64,000 nucleotides of DNA from Actinopolyspora alba. GTDB lineage: Bacteria; Actinomycetota; Actinomycetes; Mycobacteriales; Pseudonocardiaceae. The translations under genes were made by a program, and so were the position numbers. Positions 6,814 to 20,131 of this stretch are shown piece by piece. The notes under the pieces were generated by a model. It saw nothing but the letters and a program-made list of their open reading frames with translations, had not been told where the DNA came from and did not search any database. Each line of letters begins with the position of its first letter. Position 1 is the first letter of the stretch. The stretch covers positions 62,001 through 126,000 of the forward strand of contig NZ_FOMZ01000012.1 of the NCBI RefSeq assembly GCF_900112765.1, written 5' to 3'.

Positions 6814-6991
6814 TCCGTTCCCGGATAAAGCGGTGAAACTTTCGCGACTCACTGCGACCGCCTGATCGCCAAACGTGTCCGAGGGCGATACGGTCTTGCG
6901 GAGAAGGACGGTGCGTGCTTCCGGTGAGCCGACCAGTGACAGCGCCGTTGCCCCGCCACGAGACGCCGAGAGCACGGAAGGACTTTGGCCG

Positions 6992-9481
6992 GTGACCTCC
7001 CATCACCCGAACGGTCGCTCCCCGGAACGAATACTGCTGGTCAGTGCCGATATCGGTGAGGGGCACAACGCGACGGCCCGGGCCATCGAGGAGGCGGTGC
7101 GACGACTCTGGCCCGGATGCGAAACAGCACGTCTGGACACGTTGCGGATGATGGGTCCGGCAGTCGGACCACTGTTCCGATGGATCTACGTCCGCAACGT
7201 GGAGTCCACCCCGTGGTTGTACGACCTGTTCTACGACGCGCTGTGGCGGTGGCACTGGTTCGCCACCGCTTCTCGACGTTTCGTGGGAGCCTGGGTCGGA
7301 CCACCGCTTCGCCGTCGAATCCGACGGTGGGAACCGGATCTGGTGATCTCGACCTACCCGATGGCCACTGCCGGGCTGGATCGGCTGCGTCGCCGTGGCG
7401 AGCTGGAGAAGCCGGTTTCGGCCGTGGTTTCGGACTTCTGCCCGCACCCGTTCTGGGTGTACCCGGAGATCGACCTGCACTACGTGATGAGCGAAGCCAG
7501 CCTGCGAGCGCTCCACCGTGCGCAGCCGGACGCCACGGCGGCCGTGAGCGTACCTCCCGTTTCCGCGGCGTTCCGTCCCCGCGAAAGGGAGGAGGCCCGG
7601 CGGTCGCTGGGCATGCCGACCGAGGGGTTTCAGGTCCTGATCGCGTGCGGCTCGCTGTCGTTCGGTTCGGTGGAACGCGCCGTGGACGCGGCGCTGGCCG
7701 AATCCCGCGTCGACCGGGTGATCGTGGCGTGTGGCCGTAACGAGCAGCTGCGCGCGCGACTTGCGGAACGCGACACCACCGAGCGGAGCTTGTTGGCGCT
7801 GGGCTGGTGCGACGACATGCCGGGGTTGACGGCCGCGGCGGATGTGGTGATCTCCAACGCTGGAGGTGCCACCGCGTTGGAGACGATGGCCTGCGGCCGC
7901 ACGGTGATCATGTTCGAACCGATCGCCGGACACGGTCGAGCCAACGCGGAACTCATGGCACGAGCGGGTCTGGCGGAACTGTGCCCGACCTCCGAATCGC
8001 TGGCGGCGACGCTGCACGAACTCACCACCAGCCCCGAGCGACTACGACGGGACGAACAGCGTGCCCTGGAGCAGGCGACCGCGGGCGAGTTCACCGAGCA
8101 GGTGGCCGCGCTCGCCGAACTGCCCAGGCACCGCGGCGCGCGACGGTTGCGCTCCTCCGACCGGTTCTTCGTGCACGCGGCGGACGCGGTGGTACCCCAG
8201 CAGACCGGTGCCGTGCTGCGACTGCGGGAGGCGCCCGAGGAGAGAACCGCCGAACAGTGGGCCGGGCACCTCGCCGAGCTGATCGAACGACGTGCCCGTT
8301 CGCTGCCGATGCTGCGCAACACCCTGGTCCAACGAGGCGTTCGCGGCCCGCGGTGGCACACCGTTCGGCGTATCGAACCGTGGCAACATCTGGATCATCG
8401 CACCGCACCGGAACGCGACGAGGTGGTGCGGGAGTTCTTCACCGCAGCGGTACCGACGGATCGCCCTCCGTGGCAGCTGAGGGTGCTGCGCACGGACACC
8501 GAAACGTTGATCCTCGCGAAGTTGCACCACGCGCTGGGTGACGGCATCGCGGTTACGAACACCCTGGTGCGCTTGCTTCGTGACAGCGCCGACGAGCGGG
8601 AGCGGGATTCACCGCCCTCGCGCGACGAGCGAGAAGCCACGGCGTCCGCCGCGCTCCGTTCCCTCGTCACTTCACGGGGACGCACGGTGCTGACCGTGGC
8701 GCGGGGAATGTGGAAGCTGGCCACGGCGGGACCGGCGCCGCGGAGCCCGTTGGACGGGGACAGCACCTCCGGCCGGGTGTTCGACACCGCGGAGCTACCC
8801 ACCAGCGAAGTACGCGCGCAGGCACGCGCTCGCGGCATCCCCAGCAGTGTGCTGCTGATCGGTTTGACCGCCGAGGCGCTGCACCGCACGCTCGCCGAAC
8901 GAACCGGCACCGGTCCGGGACAGCACATGCGGGTGATGGTGCCGCGTACCACGCGTTCACCTCGGGACACACCGACGGTGGAGATGTTCGGGAACCACAC
9001 CGTCGCGGTGTCGGTGGACCTTCCCGTAGGCCCCATGGACACGGAGCAGCGTTTGCGTGAAGTGGCGGAGCGGCTGAACGCGGGACAGCACGACGGGCAA
9101 CCGGCGGCGGCGGGCATCGCCATGGCGGCGCTGGGGACGCTTCCCACTCCGCTGCATCGGCCGTTGGTTCGGACGATCTATCAGCGTCGATTCTTCAACG
9201 CGCTGGTCTCCGCCATGCCGGGCTCGCGTCGCCCGCCACGGGTCTGGGGGGCGTTGGTGGCAGAGGTGCTGCCGATCCTTCCGCTCGCTCCCGGGGTCGG
9301 AACGGCGATGGGGTTGATCAGCTGGGGCGATACGGTGGGTGTGGGAATCACCGCCGACGCTCGGCTGGAGTGGCTTCCCTCCCGGCTGTGCGAGCAGCTG
9401 CGCTCCTGCTTCCGGGAGTTGCGAGACCTGGCCGACTCCACTCCGCGGCCGGGGACCACCCGTGAGGAAGCGCAACGTTGA
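6992..9481 (+). CDS. Fused glycosyltransferase (MGDG-synthase-like) and WS/DGAT acyltransferase
   Basis: Two enzymes in one 829-residue chain. Residues about 10-395 form a GT28-type glycosyltransferase. The N-half has RILLVSADIGEGHNATARAI, the G-G/E-G-H-x-x-A loop of MGDG_synth domains; the C-half has DMPGLTAAADVVISNAGGAT, the nucleotide-sugar site. From about 405 (SSDRFFVHAADA) a wax ester synthase/diacylglycerol acyltransferase domain begins, with catalytic HHALGDG at 512-518 and a WSD C-terminal part (VGTAMGLISWGDTVGVGITA). The likely role is glycosylation of a lipid acceptor plus acyl-CoA-dependent esterification at the membrane; the substrates are unknown. GTG at 6992 has GGAAGGA 9 nt upstream; a GTG at 6875 is possible. 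The stop overlaps the next start (TTGA). Confidence 0.85.
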   Translation: MTSHHPNGRSPERILLVSADIGEGHNATARAIEEAVRRLWPGCETARLDTLRMMGPAVGPLFRWIYVRNVESTPWLYDLFYDALWRWHWFATASRRFVGAWVGPPLRRRIRRWEPDLVISTYPMATAGLDRLRRRGELEKPVSAVVSDFCPHPFWVYPEIDLHYVMSEASLRALHRAQPDATAAVSVPPVSAAFRPREREEARRSLGMPTEGFQVLIACGSLSFGSVERAVDAALAESRVDRVIVACGRNEQLRARLAERDTTERSLLALGWCDDMPGLTAAADVVISNAGGATALETMACGRTVIMFEPIAGHGRANAELMARAGLAELCPTSESLAATLHELTTSPERLRRDEQRALEQATAGEFTEQVAALAELPRHRGARRLRSSDRFFVHAADAVVPQQTGAVLRLREAPEERTAEQWAGHLAELIERRARSLPMLRNTLVQRGVRGPRWHTVRRIEPWQHLDHRTAPERDEVVREFFTAAVPTDRPPWQLRVLRTDTETLILAKLHHALGDGIAVTNTLVRLLRDSADERERDSPPSRDEREATASAALRSLVTSRGRTVLTVARGMWKLATAGPAPRSPLDGDSTSGRVFDTAELPTSEVRAQARARGIPSSVLLIGLTAEALHRTLAERTGTGPGQHMRVMVPRTTRSPRDTPTVEMFGNHTVAVSVDLPVGPMDTEQRLREVAERLNAGQHDGQPAAAGIAMAALGTLPTPLHRPLVRTIYQRRFFNALVSAMPGSRRPPRVWGALVAEVLPILPLAPGVGTAMGLISWGDTVGVGITADARLEWLPSRLCEQLRSCFRELRDLADSTPRPGTTREEAQR

Positions 9482-10401
9482 CCGCGACGGGGGCCTGGTT
9501 CACGATAGCGGTTCCGGCGGCGCTGGTCGGCGCCGCGAGTTTCGGCATGGCCAGCGCGGTACAGCAGCGGGCCACCAAACAGGTGCCAAGTATCCGGACT
9601 CTCAACCCACGCCTGTTGCTGGAGTTGGTACGCAAGCCGATATGGCTGGCCAGTGTCGGCACGGTCATCGTGGGCCTTTCCCTGCAGGTCGTGGCACTGG
9701 CCTACGGCCCGTTGATGCTGGTCCAGCCGCTGCTGGTGACCAGCGTGCTGTTCGCCGCCCTGCACGCGGCCTGGCTGGCGCACCGCAAGCTGGACCGGAT
9801 CGTCGTACTGGGAGCGCTCGGGTGCATGAGTGGCCTCGCCGCTTTCCTGCTACTGGCGCGTCCGGTGGGCGGTGACGAGACCATAGAGCCACAGGCGATC
9901 CCGCTGGCGGTGCTGCTCGGAGTGATCACGGTGGTGTGTCTGTTGGCCGCTTCGCGTTTCCCCGGCGAGATCCGGGTGATCGCGCTGGCGTTGGCGACCG
10001 GGGTGATCTACGGGGTGACCGCGGGGCTGATGAAGGTGGTGGCGAGTCAGTTCCGCGCGGGTGGCTTCGTCGAACCGTTCCAGCACTGGGTGCTCTACGC
10101 GGTGTGCCTCGTCGGCCCGTGTGGTTTCCTGTTGAGCCAGAACGCCTTTCAGCAGGGAAAGCTGATCTCCCCCGCTCTCGCGGTGATCACCACCGTGGAC
10201 CCGCTGGTGGGGGTGGCGATCGGAATCGGCTGGTTCGGCGAGGAGGTGGTCTCCACTCCGGCGGTGCTGGGGGGTCAGGCAGTGGCCGCCGTGGCGATCG
10301 TCGGCGGAATCGTGTTGCTCACGCATCGGGGTGAGTCGTTGCGGAGGGAGATCGAGAACAACGACTCACTCGGTGATGGTGGAACAGTGACCTGGGGGTA
10401 G
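9478..10401 (+). CDS. DMT-superfamily membrane protein (EamA/NIPA-like)
   Basis: A 307-residue membrane protein with about nine to ten hydrophobic segments in two similar halves, as in drug/metabolite or NIPA-type transporters. Recognisable parts are GAASFGMASAVQQRA in helix 1, SLQVVALAYGPLMLVQPL, and ISPALAVITTVDPLVGVAIG near the end of the second half. The start is TTG at 9478, sharing its bases with the stop of the fused glycosyltransferase-acyltransferase (TTGA), and GAGGAAG lies 7 nt upstream. The two are therefore almost certainly translated together, which suggests that it moves the lipid product or a substrate of that enzyme. That link is inference. Confidence 0.85.
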   Translation: MTATGAWFTIAVPAALVGAASFGMASAVQQRATKQVPSIRTLNPRLLLELVRKPIWLASVGTVIVGLSLQVVALAYGPLMLVQPLLVTSVLFAALHAAWLAHRKLDRIVVLGALGCMSGLAAFLLLARPVGGDETIEPQAIPLAVLLGVITVVCLLAASRFPGEIRVIALALATGVIYGVTAGLMKVVASQFRAGGFVEPFQHWVLYAVCLVGPCGFLLSQNAFQQGKLISPALAVITTVDPLVGVAIGIGWFGEEVVSTPAVLGGQAVAAVAIVGGIVLLTHRGESLRREIENNDSLGDGGTVTWG

Positions 10402-10489: not shown

Positions 10490-11242
10490 ATGCGGTTCGG
10501 TCTCGACGGGCGAACGGTGCTGCTGACCGGTGGATCCTCCGGGATCGGCGCGGCCACCGCGAGGTCGCTGGCGCGGCGGGGGTGCGAACTGATCCTGGTC
10601 GGCCGCCACGAACGCGGGCTGCGGCACGTCGCGGAGATGACCGGAGCTCGGACCGTGACGGCCGATCTCACCCGGTCCGAAGAACTCCCCCGGGTCGCCG
10701 ACGTGGCGGCCGGGGCGGACGTTCTGATCAACAACGCCGGAATCGGCTGGGCCGGGGAGTTCACCACCATGCCGAGCGAGCACGTCCACCGATTGCTCGC
10801 CGTGAACCTGGCGGCGCCGCTGGAGCTGACCCGCCTGCTGCTGCCCGACATGCGGCAGCGTGGCGGTGGACACGTCGTTTTCGTCTCGTCGATCGCCGCC
10901 GTAGGAGTGCGCGACGAGGCCGTCTACTCGGCGACCAAGGCGGGACTGCGTGCCTTCGCAACCGGGTTGCGGCACGAGATCGGCGATACCGGCATCGGAG
11001 TCACGACCGTACTGCCCGGCGCGGTACGCACTCCGTTCTTCCGGCGACGCGGCAGGGCCTACGAACGCGGGTTTCCCCGACAGGTCTCGGCCGAGCTGGT
11101 GGCTTCCCGGATCGTGAGGGCGATCGAACAGGGCAGCCGGGAGAGCTTCGTACCCCGCTGGCTGGGCGCGGCGTCCCGGCTGCAGGGGGGTATGCCCGGC
11201 ACCTTCAACCGGCTCAACGGGCTGTTCGGTCGTGACCGCTGA
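10490..11242 (+). CDS. Short-chain dehydrogenase/reductase
   Basis: A classical SDR of 250 residues. Cofactor motif TGGSSGIGAATA at about 14-25, the NNAG stretch (LINNAGIGWAG), the catalytic Ser in VVFVSSIAAVG, and YSATK with the catalytic Tyr and Lys. The basic GRHER after beta2 suggests NADP(H). The C-terminus (RFxxR-like FFRRRGRAYERGF, then FNRLNGLFGRDR) is typical of SDRs acting on lipid or hydrophobic substrates. AAGGCAGGTG precedes the ATG. It lies 88 bp after the membrane protein gene on the same strand and may be part of the same lipid locus; its substrate is unknown. Confidence 0.9.
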   Translation: MRFGLDGRTVLLTGGSSGIGAATARSLARRGCELILVGRHERGLRHVAEMTGARTVTADLTRSEELPRVADVAAGADVLINNAGIGWAGEFTTMPSEHVHRLLAVNLAAPLELTRLLLPDMRQRGGGHVVFVSSIAAVGVRDEAVYSATKAGLRAFATGLRHEIGDTGIGVTTVLPGAVRTPFFRRRGRAYERGFPRQVSAELVASRIVRAIEQGSRESFVPRWLGAASRLQGGMPGTFNRLNGLFGRDR

Positions 11243-11332: not shown

Positions 11333-12040
11333 TCAACGCGCACCGCTACCGAGCGGGTTCCAAATCGGCCGTAGCACGTTGGACAACAGACCGGGAGCCC
11401 CGTTGCCGATCCGCAGTCGGATTCCGTGACCACGCAGCTCCCTGCGGAACCACAACAACGAGACGAGAGCGGCCGAAGCCACGAGTCCGTAGGACCCGAT
11501 GGTGCTCACCAGCAGGAACTGCCCCACCGTGTGCTCGGCGAGCATCCAGAGCGCGGCGACCCCGTTGGCGATGAACACGGCGGCCCACAGCAACGACACC
11601 CGGCGGAAGAATCGTCGCAGTACGGCGTGGCCCATCAGGGCGGGTGGAAAGACGCAGAAGTCGTCGGCCAACCGTGCGAGGAAGGTTCGTTCGAACGGCA
11701 GCGTGGCCAGCAGCGCGGCCGCTATCAGGAAGTTCTGCAGGCTCGGCTGCAGGAAATACAGGAAGGCGCTCTGCGAGAGCAGACCGACAACCGTCCGTAC
11801 CGCCAACAGTGCCGTGGTCAACAGCAGCACCGCGGGGATCCGCGCGCGCAACACCAGTCGGCACACCACAGCCGCCAGCGCCCATCCCAGCGCCGCCAGC
11901 AGCCCTCCCGTCAGATCGGTCAGCTGTAGCAGCAGGTAGAACAACCCCAAGGGCGCGAGGGTGGTCTCCAACAGCTTCTTGCCCGCGTGTGAAAGATGAG
12001 TCCGGAGCCCGTCCAGCTGGACGGTCGTCGGATTGTGCAT
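11333..12040 (-). CDS. VC0807-type integral membrane protein
   Basis: A 235-residue protein with about six predicted membrane segments, resembling the VC0807 / septation-protein-A-like family. Features are the opening helix LAPLGLFYLLLQLTDLTGG, a loop with RTVVGLLSQSAFLYFLQPSL (family-like F-x-Q-P), and FRRVSLLWAAVFIANGVAALW. A short soluble N-terminus and a basic C-terminus face the cytosol. Function unknown. The ATG at 12040 has GAGGTCAAC upstream. A TATAAT box lies about 115 bp upstream. It is on the same strand as the hopanoid operon but 178 bp after hpnH, so it may be transcribed separately. Confidence 0.8.
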   Translation of the reverse strand: MHNPTTVQLDGLRTHLSHAGKKLLETTLAPLGLFYLLLQLTDLTGGLLAALGWALAAVVCRLVLRARIPAVLLLTTALLAVRTVVGLLSQSAFLYFLQPSLQNFLIAAALLATLPFERTFLARLADDFCVFPPALMGHAVLRRFFRRVSLLWAAVFIANGVAALWMLAEHTVGQFLLVSTIGSYGLVASAALVSLLWFRRELRGHGIRLRIGNGAPGLLSNVLRPIWNPLGSGAR

Positions 12041-12154
12041 GTTGACCTCACGCGGCGCGTGCGGGATCGGGGCACCCCGCACCGACGCCGTGGACGGTTA
12101 CATCGCGCTGTTGAGAATGCGACGAGCCGCGCGATGGACTTCGTGTCGAGTTCC

Positions 12155-12218: not shown

Positions 12219-13220
12219 TCAGCCGCGCATCGCCCGCAGCGACTCCCGTAGCGACCCCATCGTCGCCATCACCGCGGTGGGTTCGTAGCCGCAGTGTGCC
12301 ATGCAATTGGCGCAACGGGAATCTCTTCCCCTGCCGTAGGACTCCCAGTCGGTCTCCTCGATCAGCTCGCGGTAGGACTGTGCGTATCCGTCCGCCATGA
12401 GGTAGCAGGGGCGCTGCCAGCCGTACAACGAGTACGAGGGGATCGCCCAGGCCGTACAGGCGAAGTCGCGCTTGCCCTCGAGAAAGTCGAGGAACAGCGG
12501 TGAGTGGTTCAACCGCCACTTCTTGCGCCTCCCGTCGGCGAAAGCCTTCTTGAAAAGCTCCCTGGTCTCCTCGACCCCCAGGAAGTGATCCTGGTCGGGC
12601 GCCTTGTCGTAGGCATACGCGGGGGACAGCATCATCTGGTCGACGTTGAGTTCGTCGTTGAGGTAGTCCAGCACGTCGATGACCGTCTTGGGCGTGTCGG
12701 TGCTGAAGAAGGTGCTGTTGGTGGTCACGCGGAAACCGCGACGTTGAGCGTCCTTGATGTTGTCCACCGCCTGCGCGAACACTCCCTGCTTGCTCACGGA
12801 GGCGTCGTGACGCTCCTCCAATCCGTCGATGTGCACTGCCCACGAGAAGTAGGGGGAGGGCTCGATCTTGTCGATCTTGCGCGGCATGAGCAGCGCGTTG
12901 GTGCACAGGTAGACGAACTTCTTACGTTTGACGAGTTCGTGGACGAGCGTCTCGATCTCGGGATGCATCAGCGGTTCACCGCCCGCGATGGAGACAACCG
13001 GAGCTCCGCACTCCTCGACGGCGGACAATGCCTGTTCCACCGGCATCCGCTGTTTGAGCACGTTGGCCGGATGCTGGATCTTGCCACAGCCCGCGCACGC
13101 CAGGTTGCACGCGAACAACGGCTCCAGTTCGAGGGTCAACGCGAATTTCTTACGCCGCAGAATCTTTTGTTTGACCAGGTAGGCGCCAACCTTGGCGGCC
13201 TGGCGGATCGGGATACCCAT
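12219..13220 (-). CDS. hpnH: Hopanoid radical SAM enzyme HpnH (adenosylhopane synthase)
   Basis: A 333-residue radical SAM protein. The cluster motif is FACNLACAGCGK (C-x3-C-x2-C), followed by SIAGGEPLMHPEI, the GGE motif that binds SAM. A C-terminal Cys set (SRCANCMAHCGYEP) is typical of HpnH. In known pathways HpnH joins the 5-prime-deoxyadenosyl group to hopene, the first step of C35 hopanoid side-chain formation, at the membrane. The ATG at 13220 has AGAGGTG upstream. It is the last gene of the operon, 17 nt after hpnG, which encodes the enzyme for the next step. Confidence 0.93.
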   Translation of the reverse strand: MGIPIRQAAKVGAYLVKQKILRRKKFALTLELEPLFACNLACAGCGKIQHPANVLKQRMPVEQALSAVEECGAPVVSIAGGEPLMHPEIETLVHELVKRKKFVYLCTNALLMPRKIDKIEPSPYFSWAVHIDGLEERHDASVSKQGVFAQAVDNIKDAQRRGFRVTTNSTFFSTDTPKTVIDVLDYLNDELNVDQMMLSPAYAYDKAPDQDHFLGVEETRELFKKAFADGRRKKWRLNHSPLFLDFLEGKRDFACTAWAIPSYSLYGWQRPCYLMADGYAQSYRELIEETDWESYGRGRDSRCANCMAHCGYEPTAVMATMGSLRESLRAMRG

Positions 13221-13237
13221 TGCGGCACCTCTTTGCT

Positions 13238-13849
13238 TCAGCGAGAACGAACAGTATCCAGCGAACCGGCTCCCGCCACAGCCTCGGCCCAGCGAAGCAG
13301 CGGCAGGCCGGTAGCGCGTAACCGCCGCAGTGCCCCGGACAGCCGAGCCGGCGAGCCGGGACCCAGCAACGGTTGTCGGTGGGTGTCGAGTACGACACGC
13401 ACGATCACAACGGGACGGTCTGCTGCCGCTGTCGCCAACACCTCCGATTCCATGTCCGCGACCAGCGCACCGCCCCGTGCAAGGGCGGCGCGCTCCGCAC
13501 CGAGAACCAGTCGCTCGCTGGTCAGCACCGGACCGAGCCACACGCGCAGTCCGAGGCCGCGCAGCCGGTGGGCCAACAGCTCGGGGCGGTGGGAGCGCAG
13601 GCACGCGCCGTTCCCAGATCCGGCGACCTCGGTTCCCACCACCACGTCACCGCTGCGCAGTCCTGGGTCGAGTCCTCCTGCCAGACCGGCCACGGCCAAC
13701 GCACCGAATTCGCGCGCGGTGAGTTCGGCCGCTGACCGAGCACTGCGTCGCTTGCCGTACCCGGTTCGCCACACCCGGTTCCCGCCCGATCGGCGCAACG
13801 CGCGGGCCTCCACTCGCAACGGGGTGCATACGAGCAGGTCCGATGTCAT
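13238..13849 (-). CDS. hpnG: Adenosylhopane nucleosidase HpnG (phosphorylase family)
   Basis: A 203-residue protein of the nucleoside phosphorylase/MTAN fold, short like other HpnG proteins. Visible motifs are VCTPLRVEARAL at the N-terminus, VAGLAGGLDPGLRSGDVVV (the glycine-rich phosphate/ribose loop) and ADMESEVLATAA, where the Met-Glu-Ser-Glu motif should bind the ribose. HpnG removes adenine from adenosylhopane to give ribosylhopane. I prefer the ATG at 13849 because AGGTG lies 6 nt upstream; a GTG at 13858 is possible. It begins 9 nt after the shc stop codon, consistent with operon transcription. Confidence 0.88.
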   Translation of the reverse strand: MTSDLLVCTPLRVEARALRRSGGNRVWRTGYGKRRSARSAAELTAREFGALAVAGLAGGLDPGLRSGDVVVGTEVAGSGNGACLRSHRPELLAHRLRGLGLRVWLGPVLTSERLVLGAERAALARGGALVADMESEVLATAAADRPVVIVRVVLDTHRQPLLGPGSPARLSGALRRLRATGLPLLRWAEAVAGAGSLDTVRSR

Positions 13850-13858
13850 GGCGAGCAC

Positions 13859-15892
13859 CTATTCGGCGTGGACGGCTTGTCGGTATCGCCCGAGAGCGGT
13901 CACCGGGAAGATCTGTCGGTAGAGGTGGTAGTTGATGTAGAAGTCACCCGGGAACCCCGTTCCGGTGAACTGCGGTTCCGCCCAGCTACCGTCCGCCTGT
14001 TGCGTGTCCGCCAGAAAAGCGATGCCGCGCCGCACCGGTTCGGTGTCGTGACGTCCCAGAGCCAGCAGTGCCAGCAGGGCCCAGGCGGTTTGCGAAGCGG
14101 TCGAGTCCCCTACACCGATCCAGGCCGGATCGGTGTAGGAACGCAGGTCCTCGCCCCAACCACCGTCCGGGTTCTGCCGCTGCTCCAGCCAACGGGCCGC
14201 ACGGGTGAGTGCGCAGTGCCGTACCGGTATCCCTGCCTCGACCAGAGCGGGAACCACGGCCCCGGTACCGTAGATGTGGTTGGCTCCCCAGCGGCCGTAC
14301 CAGGAACCGTCGTTCTCCTGCTGTTCGAGCAGCCACCTTATGCCGTCGCGAACGACGCGGTCGTCGGTGTCCCCGAGCTGGGCCAAAGCCTCCACCACGT
14401 GCGCGGTGACATCAGCGGAGGGAGGGTCGATGACCGCCCCGAAGTCGCAGAAGGGCAGCTTGTTCACCAGCCAACGCGTGTTGTCGGCGTCGAAGGCCCC
14501 CCAGCCGCCACCGCGGGACTGCATACCGCGTAGCCAGCGTCTTCCCCGGTCGGCGGCCGCGGCGATGCGGTCCTGTTCGACATAGCCGGTACGGGTGAAA
14601 GCCAGCAGTACTTCCGCGGTGTCGTCGATGTCGGGGTAGCCGTCGTTCTCGAATTCGAAGGCCCACCCTCCCCCGCCTGGTAGCTCGGGACGTCGTACCG
14701 CCCAGTCCCCTCGAACGGTGATCTCCTCGGATCGGACGAACTCGACGGCGTCACGAATCGCCGGGTCGCTGTCCGGCACCCCGGCGTCGTGCAGCGCCTG
14801 GATGCTCAGCACGGTGTCCCAGACCGGCGACTGGCAGGCCTCCAGTCTGCGGAGGCTGCCGTGTTCCGACTCCTGCCTGACCAGGAAGCCCTCCAGCCCC
14901 CGAATACCCGCACGCATCACCGGGTGGTCGAGTTGATAGCCGAGCAGGTTCAGGGCGAGCAGGGAGTAAACCCAGGGCGGCTGGATACCTCCCCAGGAAC
15001 CGTCGGCTTCCTGCCTCGCCACGATCCATTCGGCCGCCCGCCGCATGGCCTGGTCGCGCAATGGCCGGAGCGGGTGCCGTTGATAGACGTGCAACGCCCG
15101 GTCGAGTCCGTTGAACACGGACTCCCAACGCGAGGTTCCGGCGTTCTCGCGCACCCGCCCCACCGGGCGTGTGCCGGTACGCAGCTCGGCGGTGTCGACT
15201 CCCAGTTCACGCCGGGGACGGAGGGTGCTGACTATGGTCAGCGGAACGATGGTCTGCCGCGCCCAGCAGCCCCAGTCGGCCAGGTTCAGCGGTACCCAGC
15301 TCGGCAGCATGACGATCTCCGGCGGCATGGCGGGTAGTTCGTCCCACGACCACTGGCCGAACATCGCCAGCCAGATACGGGTGAACACACGGGTGCGTTC
15401 GATGCCCCCGCGGCCTCGAATCCAACGCCGCGCGGCGACCATGTGCTCGTCGTCCACCTCGTCGCCCGCGAGTTTCAGGGCGATGTAGGCTTCCACGGTC
15501 GCGGACAGCTCTCCGGGACCACCGTGAAAGGCCGCCCAGGTACCGTCCGCGCGCTGCTGGGAGCGAATCCAACGTGCCGCGGCGGCGGTCTCCGCCGAGG
15601 TCCGTATCCCGAGGAACTGACGCAACATCAGATCCTCGGCGTCCATGGTCACGTTGGTCTGCAGCTCTCCCTTCCACCATCCCCGCTCGTGTTGCAGCCC
15701 CAGCAGGTGATCGCTGCCGGCTCGGAGTGCCTCCTCCCAGGAAACCCCCTGCCGCGGCGGCACCGAGGCCCGCTCGGAACCGACGTCCGCCGCGGACGGC
15801 TGCGGCGGGGGCGTCGTCTCGGTGACGGGGCCGTCGGCTCGGGGTTGGTCGGTTTGACGGATGTCGCCGTTCTGGCGCAGCGATCCGGTCAC
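13859..15892 (-). CDS. shc: Squalene-hopene cyclase
   Basis: A 677-residue triterpene cyclase that turns squalene into hopene/hopanol on the inner membrane face. The catalytic acid motif DIDDTAE (DxDD) lies at 421-425. Several QW repeats are visible, for example QEADGSWGG, QSRGGGWGAFD, QENDGSWYGRWG, QNPDGGWGED and QQADGSWAEP. The first 60 residues are a Pro/Ala/Glu-rich leader seen in many actinobacterial cyclases. The start is GTG at 15892 with GGAGGAA upstream; it overlaps the stop of the polyprenyl synthase as GTGA, so the two are translationally coupled. An upstream start at 15952 is unlikely. Confidence 0.96.
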   Translation of the reverse strand: MTGSLRQNGDIRQTDQPRADGPVTETTPPPQPSAADVGSERASVPPRQGVSWEEALRAGSDHLLGLQHERGWWKGELQTNVTMDAEDLMLRQFLGIRTSAETAAAARWIRSQQRADGTWAAFHGGPGELSATVEAYIALKLAGDEVDDEHMVAARRWIRGRGGIERTRVFTRIWLAMFGQWSWDELPAMPPEIVMLPSWVPLNLADWGCWARQTIVPLTIVSTLRPRRELGVDTAELRTGTRPVGRVRENAGTSRWESVFNGLDRALHVYQRHPLRPLRDQAMRRAAEWIVARQEADGSWGGIQPPWVYSLLALNLLGYQLDHPVMRAGIRGLEGFLVRQESEHGSLRRLEACQSPVWDTVLSIQALHDAGVPDSDPAIRDAVEFVRSEEITVRGDWAVRRPELPGGGGWAFEFENDGYPDIDDTAEVLLAFTRTGYVEQDRIAAAADRGRRWLRGMQSRGGGWGAFDADNTRWLVNKLPFCDFGAVIDPPSADVTAHVVEALAQLGDTDDRVVRDGIRWLLEQQENDGSWYGRWGANHIYGTGAVVPALVEAGIPVRHCALTRAARWLEQRQNPDGGWGEDLRSYTDPAWIGVGDSTASQTAWALLALLALGRHDTEPVRRGIAFLADTQQADGSWAEPQFTGTGFPGDFYINYHLYRQIFPVTALGRYRQAVHAE

Positions 15893-16899
15893 TGGTTCCT
15901 CCGGAGAACGAAATCGGCGAGTTCGGTCAGTCCTTCGGTCGCTCCCTGACACCCGGCGTCACGAAGCTGCCGGTGAGCGGCCGTCAATCTGCGTTCCGTC
16001 TCGGCCCTGGTCCATTCCTCCGAGCCCGCCGAACGCAGCAGTTCCGCTCCTCGGAGCACTTGGTCCTCGGTGGGTTCCTCCGGTTGGCGGTACAGCTCAC
16101 GCAGCCGCAGACCGGCGTCGGTGTCCGAATTGAGCGCGTGCACGACCGGCATCGACTTCTTGCGGGAACGCAGGTCGGAAAGCACCGGCTTTCCGGTCTC
16201 CTCCGGATCCCCCCAGATTCCGAGCAGATCGTCGACGAGCTGGAACGCCATTCCGAGTTCGAATCCGAAACCGCGCAGTCGTCGGACGGTGTGTTCGGAA
16301 GCTCCCGACAACAGGGCGCCGAGGGAGCAGGAGCACGCGATCAGCGCGGCGGTCTTGCCGGCCACCATGCGCAGGCACTCGTCGAATCCGACCTCGGTGC
16401 GCTGCTCGAAGTCCAGATCCGCCGCTTGTCCCGCGATGAGTTCGCGAACGGTGCCCGACAGTTCACGAGCCGCCCACAACGCCCGCTGCGAATCGGCTTC
16501 GAGCAACACGCCGTTGGCGAGTCCGAGCAGCGCGTCCCCCGCCAGCAGCGCGGCTGACCGCCCGAACACGGTCCAGGCGGTGGGACGGTGTCTGCGGGAG
16601 ATGTCACCGTCCATCAGATCGTCGTGCAGCAACGAGAAGTTGTGCACCAGTTCAACGGCCACCGCCCCGCTGCAGGCACTGTGTTCGTCGCCGTTGGCGG
16701 CCCGCGCCGACAACAGCACAAGTGCCGGGCGCAACGCCTTGCCCGGCCGGTCGTCCTCGGCACCCTCGGCATCGATCCAGCCGAAATGGTATTCGCAGAC
16801 CCTGCGGGTGTCCGGATCCAATCTGGCGACAGTGTGACGCAACCGCGAGTCGATGGATTCCCGGGCGCTGGACAGCGCGGAGGGCATTGTCACTGTCAT
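15889..16899 (-). CDS. Polyprenyl (farnesyl-type) diphosphate synthase
   Basis: A trans-isoprenyl diphosphate synthase of 336 residues. The first Asp-rich motif is LLHDDLMDGD (DDxxD) and the second is FQLVDDLLGIWGD (DDxxGxxxD); GKALRPALVLLSA and GQAADLDFE are also family stretches. In this operon it most likely supplies farnesyl diphosphate for squalene synthesis, though chain length cannot be read with confidence (GGPP is possible). GGAGGTGACGC precedes the ATG at 16899, only 3 nt after the hpnE stop. It overlaps shc by 4 nt. Confidence 0.93.
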   Translation of the reverse strand: MTVTMPSALSSARESIDSRLRHTVARLDPDTRRVCEYHFGWIDAEGAEDDRPGKALRPALVLLSARAANGDEHSACSGAVAVELVHNFSLLHDDLMDGDISRRHRPTAWTVFGRSAALLAGDALLGLANGVLLEADSQRALWAARELSGTVRELIAGQAADLDFEQRTEVGFDECLRMVAGKTAALIACSCSLGALLSGASEHTVRRLRGFGFELGMAFQLVDDLLGIWGDPEETGKPVLSDLRSRKKSMPVVHALNSDTDAGLRLRELYRQPEEPTEDQVLRGAELLRSAGSEEWTRAETERRLTAAHRQLRDAGCQGATEGLTELADFVLRRNQ

Positions 16900-16902
16900 G
16901 CG

Positions 16903-18258
16903 TCACCTCCACGCCACATCGCTGTGGCGATCGACGGTCCCGCTGACGACGCTGGCCGCGGTGTTTCCGCTCCGTACGGCCCCTTCTAGGGTGTCCGGCC
17001 AACCGGTGTCGGTCCACGCGCCCGCCAGCACGAGTCCCCGTTCGGCCGTGCGCGCGGCCGGACGCGACGACCTCGCGCCGGGGACGGGCCGAAACGTGGC
17101 CGCGGGCTCTCTCGTGACGAAGAAATCCAGCAACCGCGCTTCTCCAGCCGCGGGAAACAGCTTTCGCAGCTCCGGTAGGTACTGCTCACGCAGCCGTGCG
17201 GAGCGCGCCTTCACCTCCTCGTGGGCCGCGGACAACGAAATCGCCAGATACTGGCCGCGTGGCGCGTCGGCGGCTTCCGTCCGGTCGAACAACCACTGCA
17301 CCGGGGAGTCGAGGGAGGCGGCCATGGACAGGTCGGTGACCCTGCGGTCGAAATGGGCGTGCACGTTCACGATGGGCGCGCGCGACAACGCGGTGAAGTC
17401 GACCCCGACGGATGAGGTTCGATCCGCCAGCAGTTTGGCGGCGGCCGGGTGCGGAACGGCGAGGACAACCGCGGCCGCGGTCAGTTCGTACTCTTGCTCG
17501 GCGCTTACCCGCACGCGGTAGTCACCCGGTTCGCCGGATATCTCCAGCGCCTTGTGCCGGGGCAACGGCAGCACGCCTGCCTCGGACAGTTTCCGCAGGG
17601 CGGGATCACCGTGCACTTCGCTCAACGGGCGACGGATCACCCCGATGTCGCCGCCGGTGGTGGTGTCCAACATTCCGGTACGGAACACTTTGACCGCCTG
17701 GGCCAGCGATGCCTCGTCGGGCTGGGAATTCAACGCCGCGACGCAGAACAGTCCCCACAGCGTCGCCACGGAGCGGTCCGATTCGCCACGAGAGCGCAGC
17801 CAACTCCCGAAGTCGGTGCGGTCCAGGGCCGGATCGTCCGGGTCCAGTCCGCGCAGTGCCAGCGCCGTCCGCGCCGCGGTGAGCCGTTGCCGTGGGGACA
17901 GCGCACGATGTCCCCACAGGGCGGGCAACAGGTGTCCCGGCGGGGGCAGCTCGGCACGCCGCAATGTCCAGCCGGGACCGTGCGGGGTGATCACCGGGAC
18001 GCGGAATCTCGGTTGGATCCGCACCCTGTCGAGGGTGCCGAGACGTCGTAGCAGCGCGAGGTACTCGGTGTAGCAGCGCAGAAAGACGTGCTGTCCGGTG
18101 TCCACGGTGAGCTCGCCCCGGGAGAACGAGTAAGTGGCTCCGCCCAACCGGGAACGCGCCTCCAACAGGGTCACGTCGAAACCGGCGTCGCGACAGCCGA
18201 ACGCGGCGGAAACACCGGCCAGACCACCACCGATGACCACTACCCGCCCACGGGTCAT
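16903..18258 (-). CDS. hpnE: Hydroxysqualene dehydroxylase HpnE
   Basis: An FAD-dependent amine-oxidase/desaturase-like protein of 451 residues. The N-terminal dinucleotide motif is VVVIGGGLAGVSAAF, ending in LLEARSRLGG, with VDTGQHVFLRCY typical of the squalene-associated subfamily; the C-terminal FAD motif is LVLAGAWTDTGWPDTLEGAV. HpnE reduces hydroxysqualene to squalene, the third step of the HpnDCE route. It starts with ATG at 18258, overlapping the stop of the hpnCD fusion by 4 nt (ATGA), so their products are made together. Confidence 0.94.
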   Translation of the reverse strand: MTRGRVVVIGGGLAGVSAAFGCRDAGFDVTLLEARSRLGGATYSFSRGELTVDTGQHVFLRCYTEYLALLRRLGTLDRVRIQPRFRVPVITPHGPGWTLRRAELPPPGHLLPALWGHRALSPRQRLTAARTALALRGLDPDDPALDRTDFGSWLRSRGESDRSVATLWGLFCVAALNSQPDEASLAQAVKVFRTGMLDTTTGGDIGVIRRPLSEVHGDPALRKLSEAGVLPLPRHKALEISGEPGDYRVRVSAEQEYELTAAAVVLAVPHPAAAKLLADRTSSVGVDFTALSRAPIVNVHAHFDRRVTDLSMAASLDSPVQWLFDRTEAADAPRGQYLAISLSAAHEEVKARSARLREQYLPELRKLFPAAGEARLLDFFVTREPAATFRPVPGARSSRPAARTAERGLVLAGAWTDTGWPDTLEGAVRSGNTAASVVSGTVDRHSDVAWR

Positions 18259-20024
18259 GATTTCATCCCCGCCAGTGAACGAGCCGCTACGATCATTTTC
18301 TGCCTGCCCGGCAGTGTGACCCTGCCACGAGTCACCGCGGCGGGGTCATTCGCGATGTGCCGCAGCAGCTCGTGGTATATCCCCGCCATCGCCGCGCAAC
18401 AGGCGCGGCTGCGGTGATCGAGCAGGGGAAGCAGCCGCAAGCCCTCGGAGTACCACCCTTCGATTCGACGGGCCTGGAAACGCACGAGCTCGTTCAGGGC
18501 GTCGGGCGGATCGGTGAACATCCCCCGCGAGTCCAGTTCGAGTGAGACACCGAAACGACGCAGGTCCTCGGCCGGCAGGTAGACCCGACCGCCGCGACGA
18601 TCCTCCAGCAGGTCGCGCAGGATATTGGTCAGTTGCAACGCCACTCCGAGGGAGTCAGCACGCTGGGCGGCCGGTCCGGCGACCTCGTGGCCGAACACCC
18701 CCAGCGAGAGTCGACCCACCGACCCGGCGACACAACGGCAGTAGTGCGTGAGTTGTTCGAAGGTGTCGTAGCGAGTGCCGCGTACGTCGGCCTCGCACCC
18801 GTCGATGAGTTCGTGGAACACCTCCAGCGGCACGGGCAACCCGCGGGTGGTGTCGGCCAGTGCCACCAGTACGGGGTCCTTGGCGTCCGGCCCGACATCG
18901 TCGAGATCCTGTCGTGCCTGTTGCAGGCGTACCAGCTTCTGCTCGCTCGACAACGAACCGTCTCCGATGTCGTCCACCCTGCGGGCGAAGGAGTACACGG
19001 CGGAGAGCGCGCCACGTTTGACCGGAGGCAGCAGCCGTATTCCGTAGAAGAAGTTGCGCGCCTGGGTTCGGGTGATCCGTTCGCAGTACCGGTAGGCGCC
19101 GCGGACGCGGTCGTGTTCGAGCCCCGCCGATGACGACATCGAGAGGCGGACCCATTCGGAGAGGATCCTCCTCCGGTTGGGACGCACCTCCACTGCCAGT
19201 GGGTCGTACCCGGCCGGTTCGAAGGCCCGTGCCGTGGCCACCCCGCCTGCCACGTAGCCCGCGACCGCCAGCCGGGCCAGTCCGGACAGCCGTCCCACCA
19301 ACGGTTGGCCGGATCGCAGCAGTTCCAGCGCGCGATCCACTTCGAACCACACGGCCCCGCGCAGTTCGGCGGATGCTGTTGGGGCCGCGAGTTCCGATTC
19401 CGCACACCCGAAGTCCCGCAGGTCGGTGAGCGGCATGTAGATTCTGTCCTTGCGGAAGTCCTCGCCGATGTCCTGGCAGTGTTCCAGGATCTGCAAAGCG
19501 GAACAGATACGGTCGGAAAGTCGGATCAACTCCGGCTCGGCCCGGCCGAAGATGTAGAGGACCAGTTCCCCGATCGGGTTGGCGGCGTAGTAGCAGTAAT
19601 CGAGCAGTTCCTCGAAAGTGGAATAACGACGTACGTGCTGGTCCCGTCGATTCGCCTCGATCAACCGGGAGGGGACCGCGCGGGGAATACCGCAGGCACG
19701 CACGGTCGGTGCGAACGCGCGCAGCAACGGAAGTCGTGGTGTGCCGTCGTAGGCACGTCCCAGATCCGCCTCGAGCAGTTCCAGCAATCCCTCACGGGGG
19801 CCGCACGCCTCGTCACCGGCGTAGTCCACCAGTCGGGCGAAGCCGTACACGGCCATGAGGTGTTGTCGGATCCGGTACGGCAGTACTCGGGCGGCGACGG
19901 TGAAGTTCTCCGACTGGGCCCGCGCCAGCACCTCGCCCACCTCCGGCAGCTGGCCGGGTAGCACCATCTCGAACGATCGTGCCGACTGCCGAGCAGGGCG
20001 GGCACGGTCCGGTATCGCAGCCAT
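18255..20024 (-). CDS. hpnCD: HpnC-HpnD fusion: hydroxysqualene synthase plus presqualene diphosphate synthase
   Basis: Two squalene/phytoene-synthase domains in one 589-residue chain with no internal stop; usually two genes of about 290 residues each. The first half resembles HpnC: RLVDYAGDE, then HCQDIGEDFRKDRIYMP. The second half resembles HpnD: TRTQARNFFYGIRLLPPVKR, RRVDDIGDG, and TNILRDLLEDRRGGRVYLP. HpnD makes presqualene diphosphate from two farnesyl diphosphates and HpnC turns it into hydroxysqualene, so the fusion could pass the intermediate between sites. Both Asp-rich motifs are kept in each half. ATG at 20024 has AGGAGGTGGTC upstream. First gene of the hopanoid operon. Confidence 0.93.
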   Translation of the reverse strand: MAAIPDRARPARQSARSFEMVLPGQLPEVGEVLARAQSENFTVAARVLPYRIRQHLMAVYGFARLVDYAGDEACGPREGLLELLEADLGRAYDGTPRLPLLRAFAPTVRACGIPRAVPSRLIEANRRDQHVRRYSTFEELLDYCYYAANPIGELVLYIFGRAEPELIRLSDRICSALQILEHCQDIGEDFRKDRIYMPLTDLRDFGCAESELAAPTASAELRGAVWFEVDRALELLRSGQPLVGRLSGLARLAVAGYVAGGVATARAFEPAGYDPLAVEVRPNRRRILSEWVRLSMSSSAGLEHDRVRGAYRYCERITRTQARNFFYGIRLLPPVKRGALSAVYSFARRVDDIGDGSLSSEQKLVRLQQARQDLDDVGPDAKDPVLVALADTTRGLPVPLEVFHELIDGCEADVRGTRYDTFEQLTHYCRCVAGSVGRLSLGVFGHEVAGPAAQRADSLGVALQLTNILRDLLEDRRGGRVYLPAEDLRRFGVSLELDSRGMFTDPPDALNELVRFQARRIEGWYSEGLRLLPLLDHRSRACCAAMAGIYHELLRHIANDPAAVTRGRVTLPGRQKMIVAARSLAGMKS

Positions 20025-20131
20025 GACCACCTCCTACCCCGCACAGCTGATGAGGGCGTTCATTGTGGTCAGCGTAGATCGCTGAGCGACACAGCGCAGG
20101 CTTACTGACCTCGTCCGATTGAGTGACTTAG

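Follow-up and report, generated by a model that had tools for sequence, protein, structure and literature searches.

A single open reading frame in the 64,000-nucleotide stretch of Actinopolyspora alba DNA analysed here (the window) joins an MGDG-synthase-like glycosyltransferase (GT) to a wax ester/diacylglycerol acyltransferase (WS/DGAT), and it lies within a hopanoid gene cluster. This fusion of two known enzyme families is real, conserved and apparently undescribed. Because 64 of the 201 family genomes retain it, almost always beside hopanoid genes, it probably acts on hopanoids. We give about even chances to the reading that the protein is a bifunctional C35-hopanoid tailoring enzyme that would glycosylate and O-acylate bacteriohopanetetrol (BHT), its putative substrate. 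More tentative is the proposal that this one protein makes O-acylated glycosyl-hopanoids, bacterial counterparts of acyl steryl glucosides, and that its acyltransferase half comes from a clade devoted to hopanoid O-acylation, which is also found fused to a PAP2 phosphatase-like domain.

The frame is free of stop codons throughout and encodes 868 amino acids from the GTG at 6875 or 829 from the internal GTG at 6992. Either of these or another codon may be the true start, and homology to relatives begins near nucleotide 7022. A preliminary description of this DNA had read the frame as one unbroken protein carrying both enzymes, and the open frame and Pfam matches agree. It had also raised the doubt that a sequencing error might hide a stop codon at the junction. 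That doubt is removed because the same frame recurs in 64 separately assembled genomes: a one-frame architecture shared across the family at 38-97% identity rules out a frameshift or other sequencing artefact. The search of 201 family genomes equally excludes an oddity of the window alone.

Table 1. Features of the fusion gene and the adjoining hopanoid locus (window coordinates).
Feature	Position	Strand	Basis and remarks
GT-WS/DGAT fusion gene	6875..9481	+	open frame, Pfam; kept in 64/201 family genomes
MGDG-synthase/GT28 glycosyltransferase domain	7025..8065	+	PF06925 + PF04101; PRK13609; model match MGD1 4x1t
GEGHN motif, GT N-domain (region of the catalytic His in MGDG synthases)	7055..7069	+	invariant residues in 36 fusions
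WS/DGAT acyltransferase domain	8147..9433	+	PF03007 + PF06974; TIGR02946; model match 6chj
HHALGDG (HHxxxDG active-site motif)	8525..8545	+	residues 512-518 from 6992
DMT-superfamily transporter, candidate flippase	9478..10401	+	NF038012; start overlaps fusion stop by 4 nt (TTGA)
Short-chain dehydrogenase (SDR), between fusion and hpnH	10490..11242	+	PF00106; kept in family loci and other families
VC0807-family membrane protein, often at same place	11333..12082	-	NF041646
hpnH, adenosylhopane synthase	12219..13604	-	TIGR03470, 522 bits (cut-off 225); true start internal, ~residue 129
hpnG-like phosphorylase	13238..13858	-	TIGR03468, E 4.8e-22, below cut-off
shc, squalene-hopene cyclase	13859..15952	-	TIGR01507, 737 bits (cut-off 431)
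Polyprenyl diphosphate synthase	15889..16899	-	NF041169, E 3.4e-125, below cut-off
hpnE, hydroxysqualene dehydroxylase	16903..18258	-	TIGR03467, 385 bits (cut-off 283)
hpnC-hpnD fused, squalene formation	18255..20030	-	TIGR03464 + TIGR03465, both above cut-off

The glycosyltransferase half contains MGDG_synth (PF06925; residues 64-208 of 868, 59.7 bits against a gathering cut-off of 25) and Glyco_tran_28_C (PF04101; residues 254-397, 41.9 bits against 22), in accord with its earlier recognition as MGDG-synthase-like from the GEGHN motif. Among 36 aligned fusions, G22, G24 and H25 of this motif (numbered from 6992) are invariant, as are G291 and G292 of the C-domain and the downstream E297. The top NCBIfam match of this half is PRK13609 (diglucosyl-diacylglycerol synthase; E 1.7e-35), with a score below the cut-offs of both that model and PRK13608, and its top PDB sequence matches are MGD1 and UgtP/YpfP. 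An AGHG motif is common to all actinobacterial GTs examined and thus says little on the donor sugar.

The second half is a complete WS/DGAT, as had been claimed, with WS_DGAT_cat (PF03007) at residues 425-610 (44.9 bits; gathering cut-off 23.6), WS_DGAT_C (PF06974) at residues 706-849 (59.6 bits; cut-off 20.7) and the HHALGDG motif where it had been placed. H512, H513, D517 and G518 (numbered from 6992) are invariant in the alignment of fusions (A1). A fusion outside this alignment (L093, genome G109) carries DHALGDG instead, and shc lies 18 kb from it, compared with 2-9 kb elsewhere. The window fusion scores 164 bits (E 5.6e-48) against TIGR02946, the wax ester/TAG synthase subfamily, where the cut-off is 310, and other fusions score 166-169 bits, likewise under it. 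Since the scores for both PRK13609 and TIGR02946 fall below their cut-offs, the fusion is, at the level of sequence, a relative of both families and not a proven member of either. In a quick, midpoint-rooted tree, all hopanoid-linked acyltransferases form a group (support 92) distinct from the canonical WS/DGATs that these genomes also encode. The only other WS/DGAT of the window genome (L001; contig C29, 442480-443280) has THQAMIDG, with the first histidine of HHxxxDG replaced.

An AlphaFold2 model built from 36 fusion sequences (mean pLDDT 87.9, pTM 0.77) predicts full domains for both halves. Its N-terminal part superimposes on plant MGD1 (4x1t) with Z 29.7 and 2.9 Å over 302 residues at 26% identity, and its C-terminal part on a WS/DGAT from Marinobacter (6chj) with Z 36.2 and 3.0 Å over 344 residues at 20% identity. 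Between the two domains lie about 27 amino acids by Pfam and about 14 in the model. MGDG_synth and WS_DGAT_C are matched by all 36 aligned fusions, across which several further structural positions are invariant or nearly so. Both halves are under purifying selection, with dN/dS values for Actinopolyspora-type and Saccharopolyspora-type pairs of 0.15-0.23 in the GT half and 0.21-0.37 in the acyltransferase half. Judged by their motifs, both look catalytically competent.

Family models and gene positions identify the surroundings as a hopanoid cluster, with shc, hpnH and hpnC/D/E adjoining the fusion. The DMT and SDR genes follow directly downstream of the fusion, and all three face the hopanoid genes on the opposite strand. 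The joining of hpnC and hpnD in one open reading frame has already been noted for Actinopolyspora (PMC5462960). The VC0807-family protein, which has no Pfam match, is kept beside hpnH in many genera. At L062:13843-15633 and similar loci, hpnG is apparently joined to an IspH-like (4-hydroxy-3-methylbut-2-enyl diphosphate reductase) domain, as read from the sequence alone.

This neighborhood is conserved. Shc is present in 62 of the 64 family genomes with the fusion versus 25 of the 137 without it (Fisher p ~1e-28, a value that ignores the relatedness of the genomes), and more meaningful than this probability is the persistence of the association over 17 genera at 40-60% protein identity. The two fusion genomes that lack a full Shc (G138, 87% complete, which has a Shc fragment, and G087, 93%) are fragmented assemblies. 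When both genes are on one contig, shc is less than 15 kb from the fusion in 59 of 61 genomes, at distances of 2.4-8.8 kb. Throughout the 17 genera, the usual order is fusion-DMT-SDR facing hpnH-hpnG-shc-hpnE-hpnD-hpnC, and the stop codon of the fusion overlaps the start codon of the DMT gene by 4 nt in 28 of 37 loci. Together, the surveys of co-occurrence, distance and gene order rule out a chance neighborhood. However, Shc occurs in 25 genomes without the fusion, and clusters of the Streptomyces type contain none of these genes, so the fusion is not a core hopanoid step.

The preliminary description had advised mapping the taxa that carry the fusion. Within the family of the window genome (own genome included, and close to Actinopolyspora righensis at 97% protein identity), the full fusion occurs in 17 of 46 genera. 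No full-length fusion was found outside the family among 396 genomes of a phylum-wide sample searched with the window protein. A survey centred on squalene-hopene cyclase did reveal one such fusion outside the family (L132), where fusion-DMT-SDR again lies beside hopanoid genes, and this case rules out restriction to one family. A class-wide search of 297 genomes with the L132 protein returned no further fusions. The architecture is thus common within one family, one part of what the preliminary description had named as a refutation, but it does not appear to be already characterised: the literature searched, which took in a minority of subscription journals, yielded no description of the fusion and none of a hopanoid acyltransferase.

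Naturally split, eroded and re-fused versions can help to assign a role to each half. Only about 115 amino acids of the GT survive in genus g25 (L076:8695-10293; L077-L079), where the GxGH and C-domain motifs are gone, but the WS/DGAT is complete and has a PucR-type regulator on one side and SDR-hpnH on the other. This acyltransferase nests within those of the fusions, and therefore the GT was lost. In genus g27, GT and DMT genes lie far from shc, the GT nesting among fusion GTs in the tree, and a PAP2_3-WS/DGAT fusion is located about 5.5 kb from shc (L083:5621-7630). Two other families likewise encode a PAP2-WS/DGAT protein next to hopanoid genes (L125, L127). In Streptosporangiaceae and f90 genomes, the GT is a separate protein encoded with DMT beside hpnC-hpnE, and no acyltransferase accompanies it. 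In genera g5 and g42, the fusion has a divergent GT half and is adjoined by a second, stand-alone GT that is divergently transcribed (L062:10949-12067, L063, L064, L069-L071). The halves come and go, yet they mostly keep to the hopanoid locus, a pattern that is hard to explain unless hopanoids are the substrate.

We infer the following scheme, which covers the acceptor and the donor sugar, the order of the reactions, the product and how it is transported. HpnC/D/E and Shc would produce hopene, which HpnH and HpnG would convert to ribosylhopane, and reduction would then yield BHT. The N-terminal GT28 domain may then glycosylate the hopanoid side chain with a nucleotide sugar as donor, a reaction like that of MGDG synthases on diacylglycerol. 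With acyl-CoA and the HHxxxDG histidine, the C-terminal WS/DGAT would attach a fatty acid to this molecule by O-acylation, either at the sugar or at a free side-chain hydroxyl. The predicted product, an acylated glycosyl-hopanoid, would resemble acyl steryl glucosides, and the translationally coupled DMT transporter is a candidate flippase for moving it across the membrane. The SDR is a candidate for the reductase that acts on ribosylhopane. Many actinobacterial families retain it next to hpnH or the hpn cluster (window 10490-11242; L115-L119, L123, L130-L132, L138-L139, L151-L154), and it was not seen in four Streptomyces-like f5 loci checked (L133-L135, L148). According to a 2025 survey (PMC12583986), the enzyme that converts ribosylhopane to BHT is not established.

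The preliminary description had supposed that both activities serve one lipid. The stable fusion, intact active sites and conserved context support this idea, although the lipid that context indicates is a hopanoid, which had not been considered, the hopanoid genes lying just downstream of the region treated. The suggested acylated glycolipid was the right kind of answer.

Genome context shows an association with hopanoids rather than a substrate, and by homology a glycerolipid acceptor would be equally natural. The GT is nearest to diacylglycerol glycosyltransferases, its best-known relatives (MGD1, UgtP/YpfP and PRK13609) acting on diacylglycerol, and the acyltransferase is nearest to diacylglycerol/alcohol acyltransferases. 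Homology alone does not separate the two readings, as diacylglycerol is a substrate of both parent families. Two further points count against the hopanoid reading: the g27 pair of GT and DMT is remote from the hopanoid genes of that genus, and the g5 and g42 fusions combine a divergent GT half with a neighboring second GT. Acyl-glycosyl-diacylglycerols, moreover, occur in other bacteria. The main rival explanation is that the fusion makes such a lipid and adjoins hopanoid genes only through shared regulation of membrane modification. We consider this unlikely, since Shc accompanies nearly every fusion and lies next to it in 59 of 61 genomes, versions in which a half was lost or replaced also remain in the hopanoid locus, and shared regulation alone would not hold the adjacency over 17 genera. 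A slightly smaller likelihood attaches to the possibility that the halves serve different lipids, the WS/DGAT esterifying a hopanoid to give acyl-BHT and the GT glycosylating something else, with fusion serving co-expression or membrane recruitment. A WS/DGAT without GT beside hopanoid genes (g25, g27, f95 and f100), a GT without WS/DGAT in Streptosporangiaceae-type loci, the g27 GT and DMT pair far from shc, and the sugar-free acyl-BHTs described in PMC12583986 all fit such a division of labor. However, each half alone keeps with hopanoid genes in some lineages at least, which argues for the same lipid class, and the fusion has no long linker and retains both sites.

Control of storage lipid flow, the other function that had been suggested, would have the acyltransferase half make TAG or wax ester while the GT half sets the balance between membrane glycolipid and storage. 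Although WS/DGAT family membership would allow this, it is very improbable given that canonical WS/DGATs of the same genomes form a separate clade, that the TIGR02946 score is far under its cut-off, and that the gene belongs to the hopanoid locus and travels with shc and hpnH. There is equally little to expect from a carotenoid or other squalene-branch isoprenoid as acceptor, which would give an acylated isoprenoid glucoside. Relatives of hpnC/D/E do make C30 precursors, and carotenoids that are first glycosylated and then acylated are known (compare staphyloxanthin), but the neighbors here are hopanoid genes, with hpnH and shc above their family cut-offs.

If hopanoids are indeed the substrate, the locus offers conserved candidates for their acylation, glycosylation and transport, and possibly for ribosylhopane reduction, in culturable actinobacteria. 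Since hopanoids modulate membranes and also serve as geological biomarkers, it matters to both fields which bacteria decorate them and with which groups. Hopanoids that carry acyl groups or sugars have been described as molecules, whereas no hopanoid-acylating enzyme is named in the literature searched. Among such molecules are an N-acylglucosaminyl-BHT from Alicyclobacillus (cited in PMC8537080) and the fatty-acyl BHTs of Hypericibacter terrae, which make up 80% of its BHPs, with mono- and diacyl-BHT dominant in this species (PMC12583986). These lipids demonstrate that hopanoids with a sugar, a fatty acid or both exist, but they come from other phyla, the relevant portions of the two sources name no acylation gene, and the Alicyclobacillus lipid is N-acylated, not O-acylated.

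The fusion GT shares its Pfam domains, GxGH motif and fold with MGD1 and UgtP/YpfP, the GT28 enzymes of the MGDG synthase/UgtP type. It differs in carrying AGHGxAN where those enzymes have AGQE or PGQE, in being joined to an acyltransferase within a hopanoid locus, and in scoring far below the PRK13609 cut-off. The acyltransferase half likewise has both Pfam domains, the HHxxxDG motif and the fold of WS/DGATs such as those of Marinobacter (6chj) and Acinetobacter (AbWSD1, 7nxg), while it forms its own hopanoid-linked clade below the TIGR02946 cut-off and bears an N-terminal GT. HpnI is a known BHT glycosyltransferase that places a sugar (N-acetylglucosamine) on BHT within a hopanoid cluster, but it belongs to another protein family and has no acyltransferase. 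Its domain (TIGR03472) is absent from the fusion and gave no above-cut-off match in the 12 genomes tested, which counts in favor of the hopanoid reading. A parallel to the proposed product is found in eukaryotes and some host-associated bacteria, where a sterol-like lipid is glycosylated and then acylated to form acyl steryl glucosides. There, however, separate enzymes carry out the two steps, and the lipid is a sterol rather than a hopanoid.
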